From assembly GCF_000317065.1 (NCBI RefSeq), contig NC_019701.1:1550001-1614000 (forward strand): DNA of 64,000 nucleotides, written 5' to 3'. Made by a program: the position numbers and the translations under genes. The stretch is from Pseudanabaena sp. PCC 7367. Its GTDB lineage: Bacteria > Cyanobacteriota > Cyanobacteriia > Pseudanabaenales > Pseudanabaenaceae. The notes beneath the pieces are model-generated. The model searched no databases. It was not told the origin of the DNA and saw only the letters and a list, made by a program, of their open reading frames with translations. Shown in pieces: positions 24,305-37,202 of the stretch. Every line of letters starts with the position of its first letter. Positions within the stretch are counted from its first letter, which is position 1.

Positions 24305-24529
24305 GATGCTTTTTCTATCCAAACGTAACTACAAATATTCTGCAAATATTATTTAAGATCGCAATGTATGTATCTCAGGTAGATATTAGCGTGTACAATG
24401 CAAATCTATGTGATTTCAACTAATGATCTTGAATTGCAAATTAGCAATTAGCAAGATTTACCATTTGGGAACACAATCAATAATCCAGCGTCATTCAACC
24501 TAGAGTAACAGTTAAGTTGGATCTAGGTG

Positions 24530-25192
24530 ATGAGCTACAGTTTGTCTTGGTCAGCAAAAGCAGAGGTTCAGTATTCCTCCTCCATCCCCGTGTCAGGTGA
24601 AAAGCTCTCTAATTTAGACCTGGTTTGCTTGTGTAAGCAGGGAATGTCCCCTGACAAATCCGCTTTTGCCGAGTTAATGCGCAGATATCAGCCCTTTGTT
24701 GATCAGGTTTTATACAAACTTGCCCCCGATTGGCAAGATCGTGCCGACCTGGCTCAAGAAGTTTGGTTGCGCGTATATCGGAATGTCAAGCGGTTACAAG
24801 AACCAGAAAAATTCCGCAGTTGGTTGAGCCGCATTACCACTAATCTGTTTTACGACGAGTTGCGTAAACGGAAGCGGGTAGGTCGATCGATTTCGATCGA
24901 TGCGCCGGTTAGAACTGGCAGTGGTGATGAAATGGAGTGGGAATTACCCAGTGATGATCCTGGGCCAGTCGAGAATCTCTCCACCCGTGAATTTTACGAA
25001 CAATTACATAAAGCGATCGCCGATTTGCCAGAAGGCTTTAGATCCACGATCGTGTTACGCGAAATCCAAGGACTTTCCTACGAAGAGATCGCCGAAATCA
25101 CTGGTGTATCGCTTGGGACGGTAAAGTCACGCATCGCCAGGGCTAGAGCCAAGCTGCAAGCCCAACTGCAGCCCTATATTTCCGGAATGTGA
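24530..25192 (+). CDS. sigG: ECF-type RNA polymerase sigma factor, SigG group
   Basis: A 220-residue group 4 sigma factor. Region 2 runs from about 55 to 120, with FAELMRRYQPFVDQVLYKLA, DLAQEVWLRVYRNVKRLQEP and FRSWLSRITTNLFYDELRKR (core binding and -10 recognition). Region 4 lies at about 160-215, with LPEGFRSTIVLREIQGLSYE and the helix-turn-helix IAEITGVSLGTVKSRIARAR (-35 recognition). The sequence fits the cyanobacterial SigG group. An anti-sigma gene follows after 40 nt, as is usual for SigG. The start is the ATG at 24530; a GTG directly before it (24527) is equally possible. Confidence 0.93.
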   Translation: MSYSLSWSAKAEVQYSSSIPVSGEKLSNLDLVCLCKQGMSPDKSAFAELMRRYQPFVDQVLYKLAPDWQDRADLAQEVWLRVYRNVKRLQEPEKFRSWLSRITTNLFYDELRKRKRVGRSISIDAPVRTGSGDEMEWELPSDDPGPVENLSTREFYEQLHKAIADLPEGFRSTIVLREIQGLSYEEIAEITGVSLGTVKSRIARARAKLQAQLQPYISGM

Positions 25193-25235
25193 AATTTATA
25201 GCACCCGGTAGCTAGAAAAAAGGGGTGAGTCCGTG

Positions 25236-25769
25236 ATGAGCAATAAAAATAGTCAGAATAGTCACAATAGAAATAATCAAAAGAATTCTAAAGTAAAAGC
25301 GATGAGTCCTGAAAAACGCTTTGAACTGCTTAGCGCATACATTGACAATGAAGTTTCGCCAGATGAACAGCGCTTGGTAGAACGCTGGCTGGCGGAAGAC
25401 GATGCTTTCCGTAAGTTATATCAACAACAGCTTCGGTTGGGGCAACTGTTTGTGAATATGCCCAGCCCCACCCAATCGATCGCCCAAACTGAGCGAACAA
25501 TCGATCGGTTCATGGACAAGCTAGAACGCAAGTCACGACGACGGGGCATCGTTTGGGGTAGCATCGCCACTGCCGCAGTATTAATGGGTGCAGTTGGTTC
25601 GTTGATTACGCTCAACTCGCCTTCGTCGCAACTCAATTTTGCTGGCAATCAGCTTAATGAAAATCTGGAAGGTGTGATTAAAGATAAGCAAGTGGTCGAT
25701 GAATCCTTGATCATTGCCATGGAAGAACCGATCGTGCCTTTGCCCAAATCAATCAGCGCTGAAAACTAG
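25236..25769 (+). CDS. Membrane anti-sigma factor paired with SigG
   Basis: A 177-residue protein. The N-terminal anti-sigma domain (about 25-75) reads RFELLSAYIDNEVSPDEQRL then VERWLAEDDAFRKLY, the cyanobacterial anti-sigma pattern, without the HxxxCxxC zinc motif. A single transmembrane helix (about 104-126, GIVWGSIATAAVLMGAVGSL) follows a basic KSRRR stop-transfer signal, and about 50 residues lie outside the membrane. This topology (cytosolic sigma binder, periplasmic sensor tail) fits release by regulated proteolysis. AGGGG at 25221-25225 is 10 nt before the ATG. It corresponds to the SapG-type partner of SigG. Confidence 0.87.
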   Translation: MSNKNSQNSHNRNNQKNSKVKAMSPEKRFELLSAYIDNEVSPDEQRLVERWLAEDDAFRKLYQQQLRLGQLFVNMPSPTQSIAQTERTIDRFMDKLERKSRRRGIVWGSIATAAVLMGAVGSLITLNSPSSQLNFAGNQLNENLEGVIKDKQVVDESLIIAMEEPIVPLPKSISAEN

Positions 25770-26303
25770 TAAGCTATTAATAGGCTAGCTATATAATCTA
25801 GTTATTAATTAGGATCGATCGCGGTCAATTTATCTGCTATGGCTCCAGATAGTTAATTGAGATAGTTAATCGTGATTACAGGCAGGTCAAGCCGGATTAA
25901 AGTGATTACAAGCTTTACTAAGATTGCGATGTAATTGGTTCAAGGTAACGGGCATCAGCTTGCTACCTGGTAAGTTCTAATTCATCCTTGATGGTTGATT
26001 GGCTTGGTGGGCAGGGACAGGTGAAGTAAGATTTTTGGGCTAAGGACTCCTGCGTCGGTCTTGAGCCTTTGGCCAAGGATGATTACAGGTTCAGAAATAC
26101 TGCTTGTTAGATTGATTGATTGATTGATTGATTGATTTGATCGATAGCTAAACAGAATCAAGTTTTTGAGGCCTAGCATGATTGAGGCGAACTTGATTCC
26201 AGTCTAGGGTCGATCGTAGAAACCGAACCATATGATACTGGTGCTGGTGGAGATTTTCAGTAGAATTAAGATCTAAAGTTTATCCTCAGCAAAGCTAACG
26301 CTT
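25770..26303. other. Intergenic region between the anti-sigma and hhoA genes
   Basis: A 534-bp non-coding stretch with six perfect ATTG repeats (26111-26134). No RNA gene or terminator is evident. A promoter for hhoA is expected here but not pinpointed. Confidence 0.4.
26111..26134. repeat. (ATTG)6 tetranucleotide microsatellite
   Basis: Six perfect ATTG copies followed by a diverged ATTT, about 170 bp upstream of the hhoA start. Such tracts can gain or lose units by slippage and alter promoter spacing. Confidence 0.85.
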
Positions 26304-27554
26304 ATGAAAGACTCACGTAAGAAACCCGTTTTGAAACGTTTGGCTGGCCCGATCGTACTATTGGCGATCGGTGCTGGTCTTGGTGCTTGGGTATATGGCT
26401 CAGTTGGCTCAATGCTGAAGCCAGAGCAGCCCTATGTGGCAACCTATCCCCAGATTGCCAATGCTACACCTGTTTCAATCAACGACAACAATCAACAAAT
26501 CCAGGCTGTGTTGCCGCCGATCAGTGCAAATAATAACTTTATTGCTGATGCGGTCAATCTCACTGGGCCAGCGGTGGTGCGGATCAATGCCTCGCGTACG
26601 GTTGAATCGGAACAAATGCCGGATGTATTTAACGATCCCTTTTTCCGTGACTTCTTTGGCGAAGAAATCCCGCGCCGGATGCCCAGAGAACGCACTGAAC
26701 GCGGTACTGGTTCTGGGTTTATCATCAATCGCAGTGGCGATATTATTACCAATGCCCATGTGGTCAATGGAGCCGATCGGGTGACCGTGGTGCTCAAGGA
26801 TGGCAGACGGCTGGAAGGTAAGGTATTGGGAACCGATGAATTAACCGATATTGCTGTAGTTAAAGTTGATGCTCCGAACCTGCCCGTTGTTAGCATTGGC
26901 AGCTCTGAAACTTTGCAACCCGGAGAATGGGCGATCGCCATTGGCAACCCCCTTGGCCTTGACAATACAGTTACAGCCGGGATTATTAGTGCCCTGGGGC
27001 GGAGCAGCGATCAAATTGGCGTAGATAAGCGCGTAGACTTCATTCAAACCGACGCGGCGATCAATCCGGGAAATTCCGGTGGCCCCCTGCTCAATCAAAA
27101 TGGTGAGGTGGTTGGTGTCAATACGGCCATTATTCAGGGTGCACAGGGCTTGGGCTTTGCAATCCCGATCGAAACTGCGCAGCGGATTGCCGATCAGCTC
27201 ATTACCACCGGTAGTGTGCAGCGGGCATATCTGGGGATTCAAATGATTACCCTTACGCCCAATGTAAAGCAGGAAATCAACCGCGATCCCAACATGGGCA
27301 TCCAGGTATCCGAAGAACAAGGGATTTTGATCACCCGCGTAGTCCCAAATTCCCCTGCCGATCGCGCTGGTGTGCGGGCTGGTGATGTAATTGTTGATAT
27401 CGATGGGGAAACCCTTGAATCGGCTAGCCAAGTGCAACAAGCAGTAGAACGTCGCAGCGTGGGTGAAAGCCTACAACTAAAGGTGAAGCGCGATGGCCGC
27501 GATCTGGCTCTGCAAATTCAAACTGGCCTATTCCCCCAAAATACACCTACATAG
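26304..27554 (+). CDS. hhoA: HhoA/HtrA-family periplasmic serine protease (DegP/DegQ-like)
   Basis: A 416-residue membrane-anchored or secreted protease. The N-terminal basic stretch and helix (about 11-33) are a signal or anchor. The trypsin-like domain carries the triad His152 (TNAHVV), Asp182 (TDIAVVKV) and Ser258 (GNSGGP). One PDZ domain follows (about 300-405) with YLGIQMITLTP and GVRAGDVIVDIDGETLES. These proteases degrade or refold damaged envelope proteins and respond to heat and light stress. Cyanobacteria carry paralogues HtrA, HhoA and HhoB; assignment to HhoA rather than HhoB is tentative. It lies 534 bp downstream of sigG and its anti-sigma gene on the same strand. Confidence 0.9.
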   Translation: MKDSRKKPVLKRLAGPIVLLAIGAGLGAWVYGSVGSMLKPEQPYVATYPQIANATPVSINDNNQQIQAVLPPISANNNFIADAVNLTGPAVVRINASRTVESEQMPDVFNDPFFRDFFGEEIPRRMPRERTERGTGSGFIINRSGDIITNAHVVNGADRVTVVLKDGRRLEGKVLGTDELTDIAVVKVDAPNLPVVSIGSSETLQPGEWAIAIGNPLGLDNTVTAGIISALGRSSDQIGVDKRVDFIQTDAAINPGNSGGPLLNQNGEVVGVNTAIIQGAQGLGFAIPIETAQRIADQLITTGSVQRAYLGIQMITLTPNVKQEINRDPNMGIQVSEEQGILITRVVPNSPADRAGVRAGDVIVDIDGETLESASQVQQAVERRSVGESLQLKVKRDGRDLALQIQTGLFPQNTPT

Positions 27555-28360: not shown

Positions 28361-31300
28361 ATGCGCTGTTACTTATTGCTGGCCTTAGCAACATTCACGG
28401 GTCTGAGCCTAGCCTATGAAAAAGATCTGCAAGCACAGGTCACACCAGACGGAACTACCGCCACCACAGTGGATGGCAATCAGATCAATCCAGTTGGCTC
28501 CGGCACTGTCAATGGTAATAACCTCTTCCACAGCTTTGACCAATTCAACGTACCCAGTAGCGGTGTCATTTTCGGCACCGATGGTAGCAGTGTTGATGGC
28601 AACAGCATTCAAAATATTTTAAATCGGGTCACTGGCGGTGATCCCTCCAGTATCTTTGGCGCGATCCAGAGTAGCGGCGCTTTCCCCAATGCCAATTTGT
28701 ATTTGCTTAACCCCAATGGGATTATTTTTGGCGCAGGTGCCAGCCTGGATATTGGCGGTTCATTTCATGCCAGCACCGCCACGTCACTTTTGTTTGACAG
28801 CGAGCAGATTTTCAGGGCGATCGCTGATGGCGTATTCCCGTTTGGTGATCCCAAAGCATTACGGTTTGGCATTACAGAACCAGCGGCAATCATTAACCAG
28901 GGCAATTTAGCAGCCAGTAATAATTTAAGCCTGACCGGTGGCACGGTGATCAGCAGTGGCAATCTCAGCGCCAATGGCACCGTAGCGATCGCGGCAGCAC
29001 CAGGTAACAGCGCGATCGAGTTGCGATCGCCAAATGCAGTGTTGGGTTTAACAATTCTGCCGGATGCGGTGGGAAATGAGTGGCAGGGCACGATCGCTGA
29101 TATTCCCCAATTGGCCAGACAGTTAACGGGCACAAGTAATCCTGAAGCCGATGAGGTAGTCGTAAATCCTGATGGTTCCTTAGCTTTAGTAGAAATCAGT
29201 GAAGGCTTAACCAGTAGCTTTAATGAAGAAACCGAGCAGTTTGTTACCACGGGCAATTATGCGATCGCGCCGGGCGATGTAGCGATCAAAAATGCCAATG
29301 CGGCAACGGTGCAAGTTGAGGCAGACCAGGATATTGCTGCCCTGGTGCCGGATTTAGAAACCTCCGGCGATCTCTCCTTGAATGCTGGCAATGAATTGGT
29401 CTTGCGTGATTCGGCGGAAACGGCTTCAACAGTAAGGGCAGGTGGCGATCTCACCCTCTCGGCTAAAAATGGCATTGATATTCTGGCGTTGAACCATGCC
29501 GCCAGCCGGATCGAAAGTGGTGGCGATCTCACGTTGCAAAGTGATGGCATTATTTCCGGCGATGCGATCTATTTCAGTATTGGGGATTTTATTCTCAAGC
29601 CGATTACTCCTGGCAGTGTCACTAATTTTATTAGCCTCTATGATCCAATTATTCGATCGGCTGGCAATGTAGACTTGGCTGGAGATTATTCGGGGACTTC
29701 ATTACTCGTCGAAGCGGCAGGTAGCATTACCACCGATGGCATTGAAATTACAGGGCCTGATTTATTCTCACCAGAGCCAGCTTTAGTAAATAATTGGGCT
29801 TTGATTCTGCGGGCAGGAGTTTTACCTGGTTCAACAACTTCATTCCCAGTGGTGGAAGGCGGCTCTAATGTTACTGAAGCCCCTTCAGATGGGCTTGGGA
29901 ATGTTACCGTTGATGGCCCTATTAGTATTATTCCTGGGATTGGTGAAGATAGCCTGGTTGAAATTACCGCCACAGGTAATGTTGAGATAAATGACCAAAT
30001 TCAAATTATCTCTGCTTTTGGTACTACTAACCTGCTTGGAATTACGGCTGAAGGGAATGTTGATATCAATGCGCTGATCGATGCCAGGGGGGTAGACACC
30101 ACGATCACCAGTAACACTGGCACAATCAACACTGATGTGGTGATCACCCATGCCAACTCCAACGGTGGCGATCAGATTTTTTCTGCACCGCTGGGGATTA
30201 CTACCGGCGATCTCGATTCCAGTAGTCTTACCAGTGGGATAGCTGGAGATATATTCATTGATACGCCTGGGTCAGTTAATGCAGTTAGTATTACTGCCGA
30301 GGCTAATGAAGGTACGGCAGGCAATGTTTTAATTGGTTTGGTTGACCAGCCTAGTTTTTTAATTTCGGGGATTATTTCAACCCAGAACAGTTCCGCTGGC
30401 GATGCCGGTGGGGTGTCAATTCAAGTTGATGATAGTGTTAATATTACCGAAATTATTGCTAGTTCTACTAATCTTGGGCTTGGTGGCAACGTCACGATCG
30501 ATGCGGGAGGAGTTGTACAAATTCCTGGTGGTATTACTACTACAGGACATGAGTTTGATGCAGGTGATGTTAGCATTACCACGAATAGCAGCATCCTGAC
30601 TGGTGATATTACTACCACATTAGAAGATGGTGATTCACCTGGTTATAGCGCTGGAAATATTAACCTGATCGCTACAGGCAACGATGATATTAATGTAGGT
30701 AATCTCAATGCCAGTGTTTATGGTGGTGTAATTGGTTTTGCTGGCAATGCCGGCAATGTGGCGATCGATAGTGATAGTGGTGATATCTCCACGAATAACA
30801 TTCTCACTATCTCTGAGTTTGCTAATGGTGGTGGGGTTAACTTAACTGGCCAGAATGTTAATACTGGCTATATTACTAATGCCTTCTCCGAGAATACCAG
30901 CACTAGCCCAGTAATTATTAGTGCCAGTGGTGAAGTGAATACTGGCAAGATTGATACTTCAGCTAATATTAATAGTGGTGCGATCGAAATTACTGGCAGC
31001 GATGTAACTGTTAATGGAGATTTACTGACTGCATCGTCAAATATAAGTGGTGATATCACCGTTAATGCCACTGGTGATATTAATGTGAATGGCGATATTG
31101 ATACCTTTGGCTCCTATAGTGGTAGTGCTGGTGATGTCAGTATATCTACCACATCCAGCAGTAGCGTTACAGTTACAGGTAACATTTATGCCTATGGCTA
31201 TGAAGGTGCTGCCAGCGGGGATGTGACCATTACTGCTTTGGGGAATGGTGATATTAATGTTAACAATATAAACACTAATGCCGCTCAAGGCTCTTCCCCC

Positions 31301-33697
31301 ATGAGTGGTACTGCTGGTGATGTTACGGTTAATAGCAGTACGGGGAGCATTGTTACTGGCAATATTTCCGCAGTAGCTGATTCGAATCAAAGTGGATCGA
31401 TTAGCTTATCTGGTCAGAATATAACCGTTGGCGATATTAACGAGCTACCCGTTTCTGCCGACAGTAGTAACGTTTCCGTAGTTATTTCGGCGATCAATAA
31501 TGTCAGTGCTGGTGATATTTTTACTAGAGCATTTTTTGATGGCGGTGATGTTGATATCTCCGGTAACAATATTCAAGTTGGTCTGATCAATACGACTGGT
31601 TCCGATTTTGGTGGCGATGTCAATATTGATGGCAACACGATCATATTAGATTCGATCCGAACCGAGTCTACCAATGGCTTTGGCGGTGATGTGGATATTG
31701 TCTTTACCGATTTCTTCCGGGCGATCGGCTTTTTCACTGGTTTTAATGGCACGGATGCCAGTATTTCTACGGATGGCTCTGATGCTGGTGGTTCGGTTAG
31801 TATCGTCCGCGATCCCCTGGTAACCGGCGTAGATGATTTCCTGGTTGGCGATAGTGGGATTGTGAGCGAGAGCGGTAATGGCACAGTCAGCGCGATCGTC
31901 ACCAGCAACGCTAACCAGATCCTGACTGCCACGATTCCGGTTGAACAAATCCAGGGCAATATTCTGATTCGGAATAGCCTACCAAATGATCCCCCTCCCA
32001 CCGATCCACCTCCAACCGATCCGCCCCTAACCGATCCGCCTCCCACCGATCCGCCTCCCACCGATCCGCCTCCCACCGATCCGCCTCCCACACCAACGCC
32101 CACACCGACTCCTACGCCCACACCGACTCCTACGCCCACGCCGACTCCTACGACCACGCCAACACCAACTCCTACACCAACGCCAACACCGACTCCCACA
32201 CCAACGCCTACACCTACTCCCACACCAACGCCTACACCCACCCCGGCCCCCACACCGACTCCTGCACCCAATCCTGCGCCTGCACCTTCGCCTACACGAT
32301 CCCAGGAACAGGATGTAGTTGACTCCACCCTGATCACTCTCGATCCTTCACTCCAGCAGCCTGAGGCCAGTCTCGATCGCCAGGCTAAGATTGCGCTGAT
32401 TGACTTTAAGCGCTCCGAGGCCGATCGCTTTCTAGCGAATGGTCAGCTAGATGCCGCCCTGATTGCGATCGAATCCGGCTATAAATCAGAGCTGGAAGTA
32501 TATACCGGCGAGAGCCTACCAGCTAATATTGTGGGGCTGAATGATGGCCAGGAAATCATCACCGAAGCCTCAAATATTACTAAGAGTGTGACGGCGATCG
32601 TTTATCCGATTATTTTGGAAGATCGGCTCGAAATCCTGGTGATTCCGCCCAAGCGACCGGAAGACGACAATGCCGACAAGGATAAATCAATCTCCCCTGA
32701 TCAACTGGGTAAGCCATTCCTGGTGACGGTGCGAGGTGTCTCTGAATCAGATATGAATACGGTTGTGACTGACTTTGCAATCAACCTGCGTGATCCTAGT
32801 TCCGACGACTATTTGCGCCAATCGCAACAGCTCTATGATTGGATTATGCGACCAATCCACGATCGACTGCAAGCAGAGGAAGTCGAAACGATCGTGTTTG
32901 TGATGGATAGTGGCTTGCGGGTAATCCCACCTGCTGCCTTCCATGATGGTAGTAGCTTCTTAGCGGATCAATATGCATCCGCCACAATTCCGGCCTTAAG
33001 TGTTAGCCAAGCAATCCTGAAGGAAAGAGATAGCAAAAACAGTCGGATTCTGGCGATGGGTCTGACGGAATCTGTGGATGGATTTGCCGCCCTTCCTGCG
33101 GTAGAAACTGAAGTGGAAACCATTACCGAAGATGTATTATCGGGAAGTTTCTTCCTGAATGAACCATTCACCGTTGGCAACCTCCAATCGCAACGTGGTC
33201 AGGCAAAATATGGCATTATCCATCTGGCCACCCATGCTCGATTCACTTCTTCGCAAGAAGAGGGCGCATTTATTCAATTCTGGGATCGCCGCCTGAATAT
33301 TAAAGCGATCGGCGAGTTGGGGCTAGATGATCCAACCGTGGAAATGCTGACCCTCAGCGCTTGTCAAACTGCCGTGGGTGAAAGTCTTGGCCTGGGTGGA
33401 TTGGCGATCAAGAAGGGGGTTAAGAGCGTATTGGCTTCCCTGTGGCCGGTTGAGGATGCTGGCACCGCACCGCTGATGATTAATTTCTATAGCCGGTGGG
33501 AGGATTCGCGGAGTAAGGCGATCGCCCTGCGTGAATCTCAGCAATCGATCCTGAGTGGTAGGGTCAGAATCGAAAATGGCCGAGCAGTTGGTATTCCTGG
33601 TCTGGATGATGTGATTTTGCCCGATGAAGGAGCCCAAATCGATCTTTCCCATCCCTACTATTGGTCTTCGTTTATTTTGGTTGGCAACTGGCTCTAA
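28361..33697 (+). CDS. Filamentous-haemagglutinin-type secreted adhesin with C-terminal CHAT protease domain
   Basis: A 1778-residue protein. A signal peptide (about 1-25) precedes a two-partner-secretion (TPS) domain (about 27-160) with [38 protein letters not shown] and [21 protein letters not shown] long beta-helix-like region of G-D-V/I-containing short repeats extends to about 1205. A DPPPT then PTPT linker (about 1210-1313) leads to a helical segment and a CHAT domain (about 1480-1778). The CHAT catalytic dyad is visible: His1625 in HLATHARF and Cys1668 in [10 protein letters not shown]. The architecture implies a surface or exported fibre carrying a caspase-like protease. No TpsB/FhaC-type outer-membrane partner is encoded in this window. 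Substrate and trigger are unknown. Confidence 0.92.
31988..32299 (+). repeat. Low-complexity Pro/Thr-coding tandem repeat
   Basis: Tandem CC-rich units coding first Asp-Pro-Pro-Pro-Thr (15-nt unit) and then Pro-Thr dipeptides, ending in Ala-Pro and Asn-Pro variants. It forms a stiff spacer between the adhesin and protease parts of the encoded protein and is a likely site of length variation. Confidence 0.95.
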
Positions 33698-36152: not shown

Positions 36153-37202
36153 CTAAATTAAATCCCAGTTCAAAGGCGTTCCTCTGGCGATATTACAAGC
36201 AGCGGTTTTACCAAGAAATTGATCTATGTGCTTTGGGGCCAGACCATAACCAGGGCGAATCGATCGAATATTTTGGGTAGTAAATGTTTCGCCAGCTTTG
36301 ATGTCCTCAGTCACATAGAGCGATCGCCGAAAAACCCGCGAACCTTGTTCGGCTGCCAACGAGCCATAGACAACCTGGCCTAAAGCCTGCCAGGCGCGTT
36401 CACTTTCGCTCACCAATTGCTGCATTTCTGCTACTTCCAGCGAGAAAGCTGCATCAACGCCCCCGTCAGCTCTAGAGAGGGTGAAATGTTTTTCAATCAG
36501 GGTTGCGCCCAAGGCCACACTGGCCACCGCTACACCAATTCCCAGGGTATGATCGGAAAGCCCCACCTGTACACCGAAAAGTTCGCGCAGATGAGGAATT
36601 GTGAGCAGGTTTGAATTGGTAGGAAGGGAAGGATAGGTGCTGGTGCATTTAAGCAAAATCAAATCACGCCCGCCAGCATTGCGGAAGGCACAGACCATCT
36701 CATCCATTTCGGCGATCGTGGCCATGCCAGTTGAAATAATCGTTGGTTTACCAGTGCTGGCAACTTTCTGAATCAGGGCTAGATCGATATTCTCAAAAGA
36801 GGCGATCTTATAACAAGGCACGTTGATAGCTTCTAGAAAGTCAACGGCAGAAGGATCAAAGGGGCTACTAAAACCAATCATGCCCAATTCGCGGCAACGC
36901 TTGAAAATTGGTTCGTGCCATTCCCAGGGCGTATGGGCTTTTTGATAAAGCTGATAGAGGGAATTCCCTTGCCATAAACTCTGAGGATCATCAATCAAGA
37001 ATTCACCGGTATCCAGATTAATCGTCATGGTATCGGCAGTATAGGTTTGCAGCTTCAGGGCATGGGCTCCCGACTTGGCCGCTGCCTCAACGATCGCCAA
37101 AGCTCGCTCTAGCGAATGATTATGATTGCCAGACATTTCCGCCACCACCAGGGGAGGATGTTGAGAGCCAATTTTATGGCCTTGGATCACGATTTCCTGC
37201 AT
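36153..37202 (-). CDS. pseI: Pseudaminic acid synthase (NeuB/PseI family)
   Basis: A 349-residue enzyme that condenses a 6-carbon aminosugar with phosphoenolpyruvate to make a nine-carbon sialic-acid-like sugar. The TIM barrel begins VVAEMSGNHNHSLERALAIV and continues GAHALKLQTYTADTMT, GFSSPFDPSAVDFLEAINVP, YKIASFENIDLALIQKVAS, STGMATIAEMDEMV, KCTSTYPSLPTNSNL and GLSDHTLGIGVAVASVALGA. A C-terminal SAF (antifreeze-like) domain follows (about 285-349, RRSLYVTEDIKAGETFT). SGNHNHSLERAL and LKLQTYTADT favour PseI over NeuB or LegI. No other pseudaminate genes are in the window. Confidence 0.9.
   Translation of the reverse strand: MQEIVIQGHKIGSQHPPLVVAEMSGNHNHSLERALAIVEAAAKSGAHALKLQTYTADTMTINLDTGEFLIDDPQSLWQGNSLYQLYQKAHTPWEWHEPIFKRCRELGMIGFSSPFDPSAVDFLEAINVPCYKIASFENIDLALIQKVASTGKPTIISTGMATIAEMDEMVCAFRNAGGRDLILLKCTSTYPSLPTNSNLLTIPHLRELFGVQVGLSDHTLGIGVAVASVALGATLIEKHFTLSRADGGVDAAFSLEVAEMQQLVSESERAWQALGQVVYGSLAAEQGSRVFRRSLYVTEDIKAGETFTTQNIRSIRPGYGLAPKHIDQFLGKTAACNIARGTPLNWDLI

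Follow-up and report, generated by a model that had tools for sequence, protein, structure and literature searches.

What is a protease doing at the end of an exported fibre protein? The question is raised by P0001, a gene in a stretch of 64,000 nucleotides of the Pseudanabaena sp. PCC 7367 genome (contig NC_019701.1, positions 1,550,001–1,614,000; hereafter the window). The original prediction described its product as a single 1778-residue protein joining a two-partner secretion (TPS) domain and a beta-helix to a Pro/Thr linker and a CHAT domain, and an open reading frame check, Pfam and AF2 models confirmed this layout. Our preferred reading, held tentatively and with a little less than even confidence, is that P0001 is a TpsA exoprotein whose C-terminal end is replaced by a separase/Csx29-like CHAT cysteine protease, and that it represents the one-gene form of a widespread tpsA–tpsB–CHAT module in which a periplasmic CHAT processes the exoprotein.

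Domains, folds and catalytic residues

Both functional ends of P0001 scored far above their Pfam cut-offs, with PF05860 covering residues 25–230 (115.5 bits against 33.5, E 5e-33) and PF12770 covering residues 1487–1776 (188.7 bits against 24, E 2e-55). The TPS domain was also matched by NCBIfam TIGR01901 (74.1 bits against 29.1) and carries the NPNG motif at residue 117. An AF2 model of residues 21–430 was a beta-helix with a predicted local distance difference test score (pLDDT) of 93, and it matched the secretion domains of EtpA (Z 29.2), HMW1 (HMW1-PP; 29.1), HxuA (27.9) and FHA (25.4). Beyond residue 430 the shaft probably continues as a beta-helix, judging from its ongoing Gly/Asn/Thr-rich repeat pattern; the Pfam Fil_haemagg match on the shaft was weak and under cut-off.

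The C-terminal model was built from the last 468 residues of P0001 aligned with 63 relatives (64 sequences), and had a pLDDT of 89.6 and a predicted template modelling score of 0.91. Its fold matches were to the tetratricopeptide repeat (TPR)-CHAT protein Csx29 (Z 29, root-mean-square deviation 3.6 over 352 residues, approximately 11 % identity), separase (Z 25.7), a PDB chain identified from its title alone as 'transmembrane anti-sigma factor DdvA' (Z 20.8), the gingipains RgpB and Kgp (Z 19.6 and 19.1) and caspase-6 (Z 12.6). The modelled C-terminal part has the caspase-hemoglobinase fold. His1625 directly follows core strand 307–313 and Cys1668 the next strand, 352–355 (model numbering), so that in the model the proposed dyad lies where two neighbouring core strands end, as expected of caspase-fold enzymes.

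That this dyad is intact, as originally claimed, was supported by locating both codons and by the 64-sequence alignment, in which His1625 and Cys1668 are among only ten invariant columns. The His/Cys pair was likewise kept in 103 of 104 CHAT domains of related loci (denoted below by L and a number). The mature P0001 chain (1753 residues) contains one Cys, the catalytic one, against approximately 14 expected from the other genes in the window, and the same single-Cys pattern was found in P0002, L022 and L136. Cysteine is generally avoided by secreted beta-helix proteins, and for this reason the conserved dyad and lone Cys are indirect evidence for selection for catalysis. A purely structural role, in which the CHAT fold serves solely as a periplasmic anchor for the C-terminus and peptidase activity has no relevance, would fit the replacement of the anchoring end of TpsA by CHAT and the survival of one TPS-linked CHAT after dyad loss, a pseudo-protease beside tpsB with His→Tyr and Cys→Gly substitutions (L129:6071-8404, + strand). 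However, the invariance of both residues across 64 diverse sequences and the retention of a Cys in an otherwise cysteine-free chain make such a plug very improbable.

TPR repeats ahead of CHAT were not found in P0001 using Pfam; they are present in P0003, P0004 and the fusion L081, in the last of these between shaft and CHAT. A conserved disulfide anchor ahead of CHAT was considered and rejected, Cys pairs being found in several relatives and none in P0001. P0001, P0002, P0003 and P0005 gave zero anti-phage defence matches in PADLOC profiles at E 0.001.

CHAT genes at TpsB loci

An initial scan for relatives rewarded loci with both domains and, being biased, was kept out of the linkage statistic. 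For that statistic an independent sample of 45 TpsB loci from 17 cyanobacterial genomes was picked by TpsB family only, blind to CHAT, and expected linkage was calculated from each genome's own CHAT count, with counts resting on one Pfam search. A CHAT gene was present within 500 bp of tpsB in 15 of the 45 loci (0.96 expected, P ~ 7e-15) and within 5 kb in 18 (2.2 expected). Four of the 15 linked loci were TPS-CHAT fusions beside tpsB (L110, L111, L123 and L136), and L131 is probably also one. In the reverse direction, when 20 CHAT loci were drawn by CHAT score, only 2 proved to be TPS-linked, which indicates that most cyanobacterial CHATs serve another role.

At TpsB loci the CHAT is either fused to tpsA or encoded by its own gene with its own signal peptide. 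The relatives scan mostly gave loci with a TPS protein, often TpsB, and a separate CHAT gene as neighbours, and it gave the same arrangements in Desulfobacter, Thiotrichales, Mariprofundaceae, Competibacter, Haliea and others. P0001 would thus be the fused member of a widespread link between TPS and a caspase-like protease that is apparently undescribed: no paper among those searched dealt with CHAT together with two-partner secretion or filamentous hemagglutinin, and PMC5108060 mentions CHAT and not hemagglutinins.

A full TPS domain is present in four proteins of the 4.89 Mb assembly (two contigs); one further match was weak, partial and under cut-off. Two of the four, P0001 and P0002, are TPS-CHAT fusions. 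Among the genome's five CHAT proteins the nearest paralogue of the P0001 CHAT is P0005 (approximately 50 % identity), a 540-residue protein consisting of a signal peptide, a short stretch and CHAT, without a TPS domain. In a maximum-likelihood tree of 80 CHAT domains, the TPS-linked CHATs fell in one large group, separate from most other cyanobacterial CHATs. Of the 27 rows in the cyanobacterial clade that contains P0001, 25 are fusions, and further fusions were found outside this clade (P0002, the Desulfobacterota pair L051/L081, L091 and the Nostoc locus L085). On this tree the state must have switched between fused and separate at least 7 times, with the fusion status of L096, L131, L206, L207 and L210 assigned from open or truncated frames, and TPS-CHAT fusion has therefore very likely arisen repeatedly. 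L085 has the look of a recent fusion, nested as it is among Nostoc loci in which tpsA and CHAT are adjacent but unfused genes. Repeated fusion of neighbouring genes is a classic sign of proteins acting together. With a second fusion in the same genome and a fusion family kept in relatives, the P0001 fusion is far beyond chance.

The original prediction stated that no TpsB is encoded nearby. This was correct for the window and did not extend to the genome, in which a search found two complete ShlB/FhaC-type TpsB proteins with POTRA and barrel, P0006 at C2:458672 and P0007 at C2:1231356. The nearest relative in view with the full fusion, L205, is 54 % identical over the CHAT part, and its tpsB starts 129 bp downstream of the fusion gene. 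The best match of this L205 tpsB in the Pseudanabaena genome was P0006 (58 % over 498 residues; next best in the whole set 44 %), whereas P0007 was closest to the TpsBs of other loci. P0006 lies 1.1 Mb from P0001. Because it is the best match to the tpsB adjoining P0001's nearest relative, P0006 is likely the partner transporter of P0001, the adjacency having since been lost.

Several gene arrangements recurred at these loci. In L044, L095, L117, L135, L140 and L143 the start of the CHAT frame overlaps the 3' end of tpsB by exactly 49 bp (52 bp in L093), and CHATs overlapping tpsB often begin MARK; the fixed overlap points to translational coupling or to a limit set by the C-terminal strand of TpsB. 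At three loci tpsA and tpsB form one open frame with the CHAT gene directly after (L082:489-5156, L141:6297-10622 and L144:5934-10325). At two others, from different cyanobacterial families, a single frame contains a glycosyltransferase family-2-like N-terminus (approximately 240 residues, by eye), a signal-peptide-like segment, TPS, beta-helix and CHAT (L111:1569-8012, − strand; L123:11209-16677, + strand), and may represent either a glycosyltransferase-TPS-CHAT polyprotein or a frame with an internal start.

Position and substrate of the CHAT domain

Predicted export by the TPS route, as first proposed, is supported by the signal peptide, the TPS domain and the presence of TpsBs in the genome. 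The accompanying statement that CHAT proteases usually act inside cells fails in cyanobacteria: signal-peptide-like N-termini were found in 19 of 20 CHATs sampled by CHAT score and blind to TPS (L175-L194) and in all five CHATs of this genome. In cyanobacteria, export of CHATs thus seems to be the general case. Among separate TPS-adjacent CHATs, an N-terminal hydrophobic segment was present in 72 of 78 (53 with an AXA-like site), compared to 225 of 643 background open reading frames.

Export does not by itself mean display on the surface, because the equivalent separate CHATs carry a Sec signal without a TPS domain. In established TPS biology TpsB takes only proteins with a TPS domain, so the separate CHATs would be expected to remain periplasmic. 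In the fused proteins, CHAT stands where the TpsA C-terminus usually is: of 109 separate TpsAs, 72 have a G-x-G-G-L-P-type motif close to the C-terminal end, whereas only 1 of 22 fusions has it directly before CHAT. The C-termini of HMW1 and HxuA remain periplasmic (PMC5422565), and the FhaB prodomain, with its proline-rich region, is periplasmic and removed by periplasmic proteases (PMC8263021). The simplest reading would place CHAT in the periplasm, held against the inner face of TpsB.

Under this reading, Sec would move P0001 into the periplasm, and a TpsB pore, most likely that encoded at C2:458672, would take the TPS domain. The beta-helix would then emerge and fold outside the cell, while CHAT would fold on the periplasmic side and halt the chain with the Pro/Thr linker in or near the pore, much as the FhaB prodomain does. 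CHAT might then cleave an exoprotein close to the pore, acting in cis on its own stalk or, in the two-gene form, on the partner TpsA, and the fibre would be anchored until the cut and afterwards released or remodelled. Within this scheme we infer the periplasmic position of CHAT, the identity of TpsB, the substrate and the outcome of cleavage. Csx29, the CHAT relative studied most closely, shares this fold and makes a single specific cut in its partner Csx30 (PMC10028731). As TpsA is the partner that recurrently accompanies CHAT, the exoprotein is our first-choice substrate; CHAT would cleave TpsA close to the pore so as to release or remodel it. Self-cleavage of the fibre, one of the roles originally suggested, remains a good hypothesis. 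A role at the cell surface or in cell-cell interaction, suggested alongside it, is possible and less favoured given the separate CHATs with a Sec signal and no TPS domain.

Such a surface role would have CHAT pass fully through TpsB and act outside, at the fibre tip or foot or after shedding, on extracellular or neighbour-cell proteins. Enzymes can be exported by the TPS route, the LepA protease of Pseudomonas aeruginosa being a TpsA; the gingipains that match the model (Z 19.6) are extracellular caspase-fold proteases; the Pro/Thr linker resembles a flexible spacer; and a cysteine-free shaft with a single catalytic Cys fits an oxidizing environment. Nevertheless, the separate CHATs and P0005 should stay periplasmic, and in the fusions CHAT replaces the part of TpsA that HMW1 and HxuA retain, so we regard external action as unlikely, if still a substantial possibility.

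Signalling through the envelope, with a third protein as substrate, is the main alternative for a CHAT that is periplasmic. The fibre would sense contact or load, and CHAT, switched on via the chain, would cut an envelope protein, an anti-sigma factor for example. Csx29 is under allosteric control, and the protein that it cuts, Csx30, inhibits an extracytoplasmic function (ECF) sigma factor (PMC10028731). The DdvA-titled chain among the fold matches and the ECF sigma and anti-sigma genes in the window (24527-25769) point the same way. However, the ECF and HtrA proteins of the window were unmatched near L205-L216, and no recurrent third partner besides tpsA and tpsB was found, though no systematic search for one was made; we consider this role improbable.

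Hardly credible is a contact-dependent toxin, with CHAT as a delivered effector in the manner of the CdiA C-terminal toxin. The layout of a stick with a C-terminal enzyme does resemble CdiA, but P0001 has no VENN motif, its C-terminal domain is conserved rather than polymorphic, and CHAT is also found unfused, as an exported protein of the producing cell's own periplasm. Between the P0001 stop and a convergent histidine kinase gene there are only 95 bp, with no immunity gene, and identity as a contact-dependent inhibition toxin was ruled out on this absence.

Several observations weigh against processing of the exoprotein by a periplasmic CHAT. No cleavage site or substrate was found. P0001 and its likely TpsB lie apart in the genome. 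Signal peptides were tested for by a hydrophobicity heuristic, which 35 % of background frames also passed. Because the C-terminal domain is exported in some TpsA proteins, CHAT might be carried across too, and the pseudo-protease L129 persists beside its tpsB. The Pro/Thr linker was rejected as a defining feature and is not essential: although present in 8 of 22 fused TPS-CHATs and 1 of 109 separate TpsAs, it is missing in L205 and most fusions. Within P0001, the linker DNA (31988-32263) consists of tandem repeat units of 15, 18 and 42 bp, and slippage could alter its length.

Neighbouring genes and known systems

The features of P0001 and the second fusion are given in Table 1. Upstream of P0001 are genes for an ECF sigma factor, a zinc-finger anti-sigma factor and an HhoA/HtrA protease (window 24527-27554), which were rejected as a conserved neighbourhood, with no match near the relatives L205-L216. 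Window 36153-37202 (− strand) encodes the pseudaminic acid synthase PseI (490.9 bits against a cut-off of 340), of a surface nonulosonic acid pathway. Promoter and terminator scans yielded no more than expected by chance.

Table 1. Features of P0001 in window coordinates, and location of the second TPS-CHAT fusion
Feature	Coordinates	Strand	Details
TPS-CHAT fusion gene P0001	28361..33697	+	1778 aa, ATG to stop; coordinates and frame checked
Predicted signal peptide, residues 1-25	28361..28435	+	n/h/c regions and Ala at expected cleavage site, by reading the sequence
TPS secretion domain, residues 25-230	28433..29050	+	PF05860, TIGR01901, AF2 model
Beta-helix shaft, residues 231-1204, without cysteine	29051..31972	+	AF2 to residue 430
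Pro/Thr-rich linker, residues ~1205-1312 (~108 aa)	31973..32296	+	Tandem repeats 31988-32091, 32096-32263
Helical neck before CHAT, residues 1334-1408	32360..32584	+	AF2 helices 24-49, 53-72, 83-97 of C-terminal model
CHAT caspase-fold protease domain, residues 1411-1778 (Pfam core 1487-1776)	32591..33694	+	PF12770, AF2, fold matches
Catalytic His1625 codon CAT	33233..33235	+	Conserved among relatives
Catalytic Cys1668 codon TGT	33362..33364	+	Sole Cys of mature protein
P0002, second TPS-CHAT fusion	C2:163771-167031		1086 aa

Two-partner secretion is described as comprising an exoprotein and a transporter, with a small number of known additional partners, among them immunity proteins and glycosyltransferases. 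A CHAT linked to a third of the sampled cyanobacterial TpsB loci would add a class of TPS partner. At just under even confidence, we propose a three-partner type Vb secretion in cyanobacteria, several Desulfobacterota, Gammaproteobacteria and other phyla, in which a dedicated periplasmic caspase-family protease beside TpsB gates, cuts or senses the exoprotein, P0001 being the fused version. If true, this would place a dedicated caspase-fold enzyme within an outer-membrane secretion pathway, provide a specific route to release or control surface fibres, relocate one CHAT protease branch from cytosol to envelope and offer, for the many CHAT proteins of cyanobacteria, a location that can be tested and a possible substrate.

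Among known type Vb systems, P0001 resembles FhaB, HMW1, HxuA and EtpA in its signal peptide, TPS domain with NPNG, beta-helix and the ShlB/FhaC-type transporter in the genome. It differs in ending in a CHAT peptidase rather than an anchor, prodomain or toxin, and in having no adjacent tpsB. The likeness to Csx29 of Craspase (type III-E CRISPR) extends in fold across nearly the whole C-terminal model, and a profile alignment to a TPR-CHAT chain paired the same His and Cys motifs with a weak sequence score; unlike Csx29, P0001 is predicted to be exported rather than cytosolic, has neither Cas7-11 nor TPR and shares only the low identity given above. Separase has the two-part caspase-like fold in common with P0001, but is eukaryotic, intracellular and without a TPS part. 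The gingipains RgpB and Kgp are likewise exported caspase-fold cysteine proteases, and differ in type IX secretion, in domain layout and in not belonging to the CHAT family. The cyanobacterial CHAT protein HetF, with a role in division and heterocysts, has its CHAT at the N-terminus (residues 1–555), a transmembrane segment and TPR, and no TPS domain.

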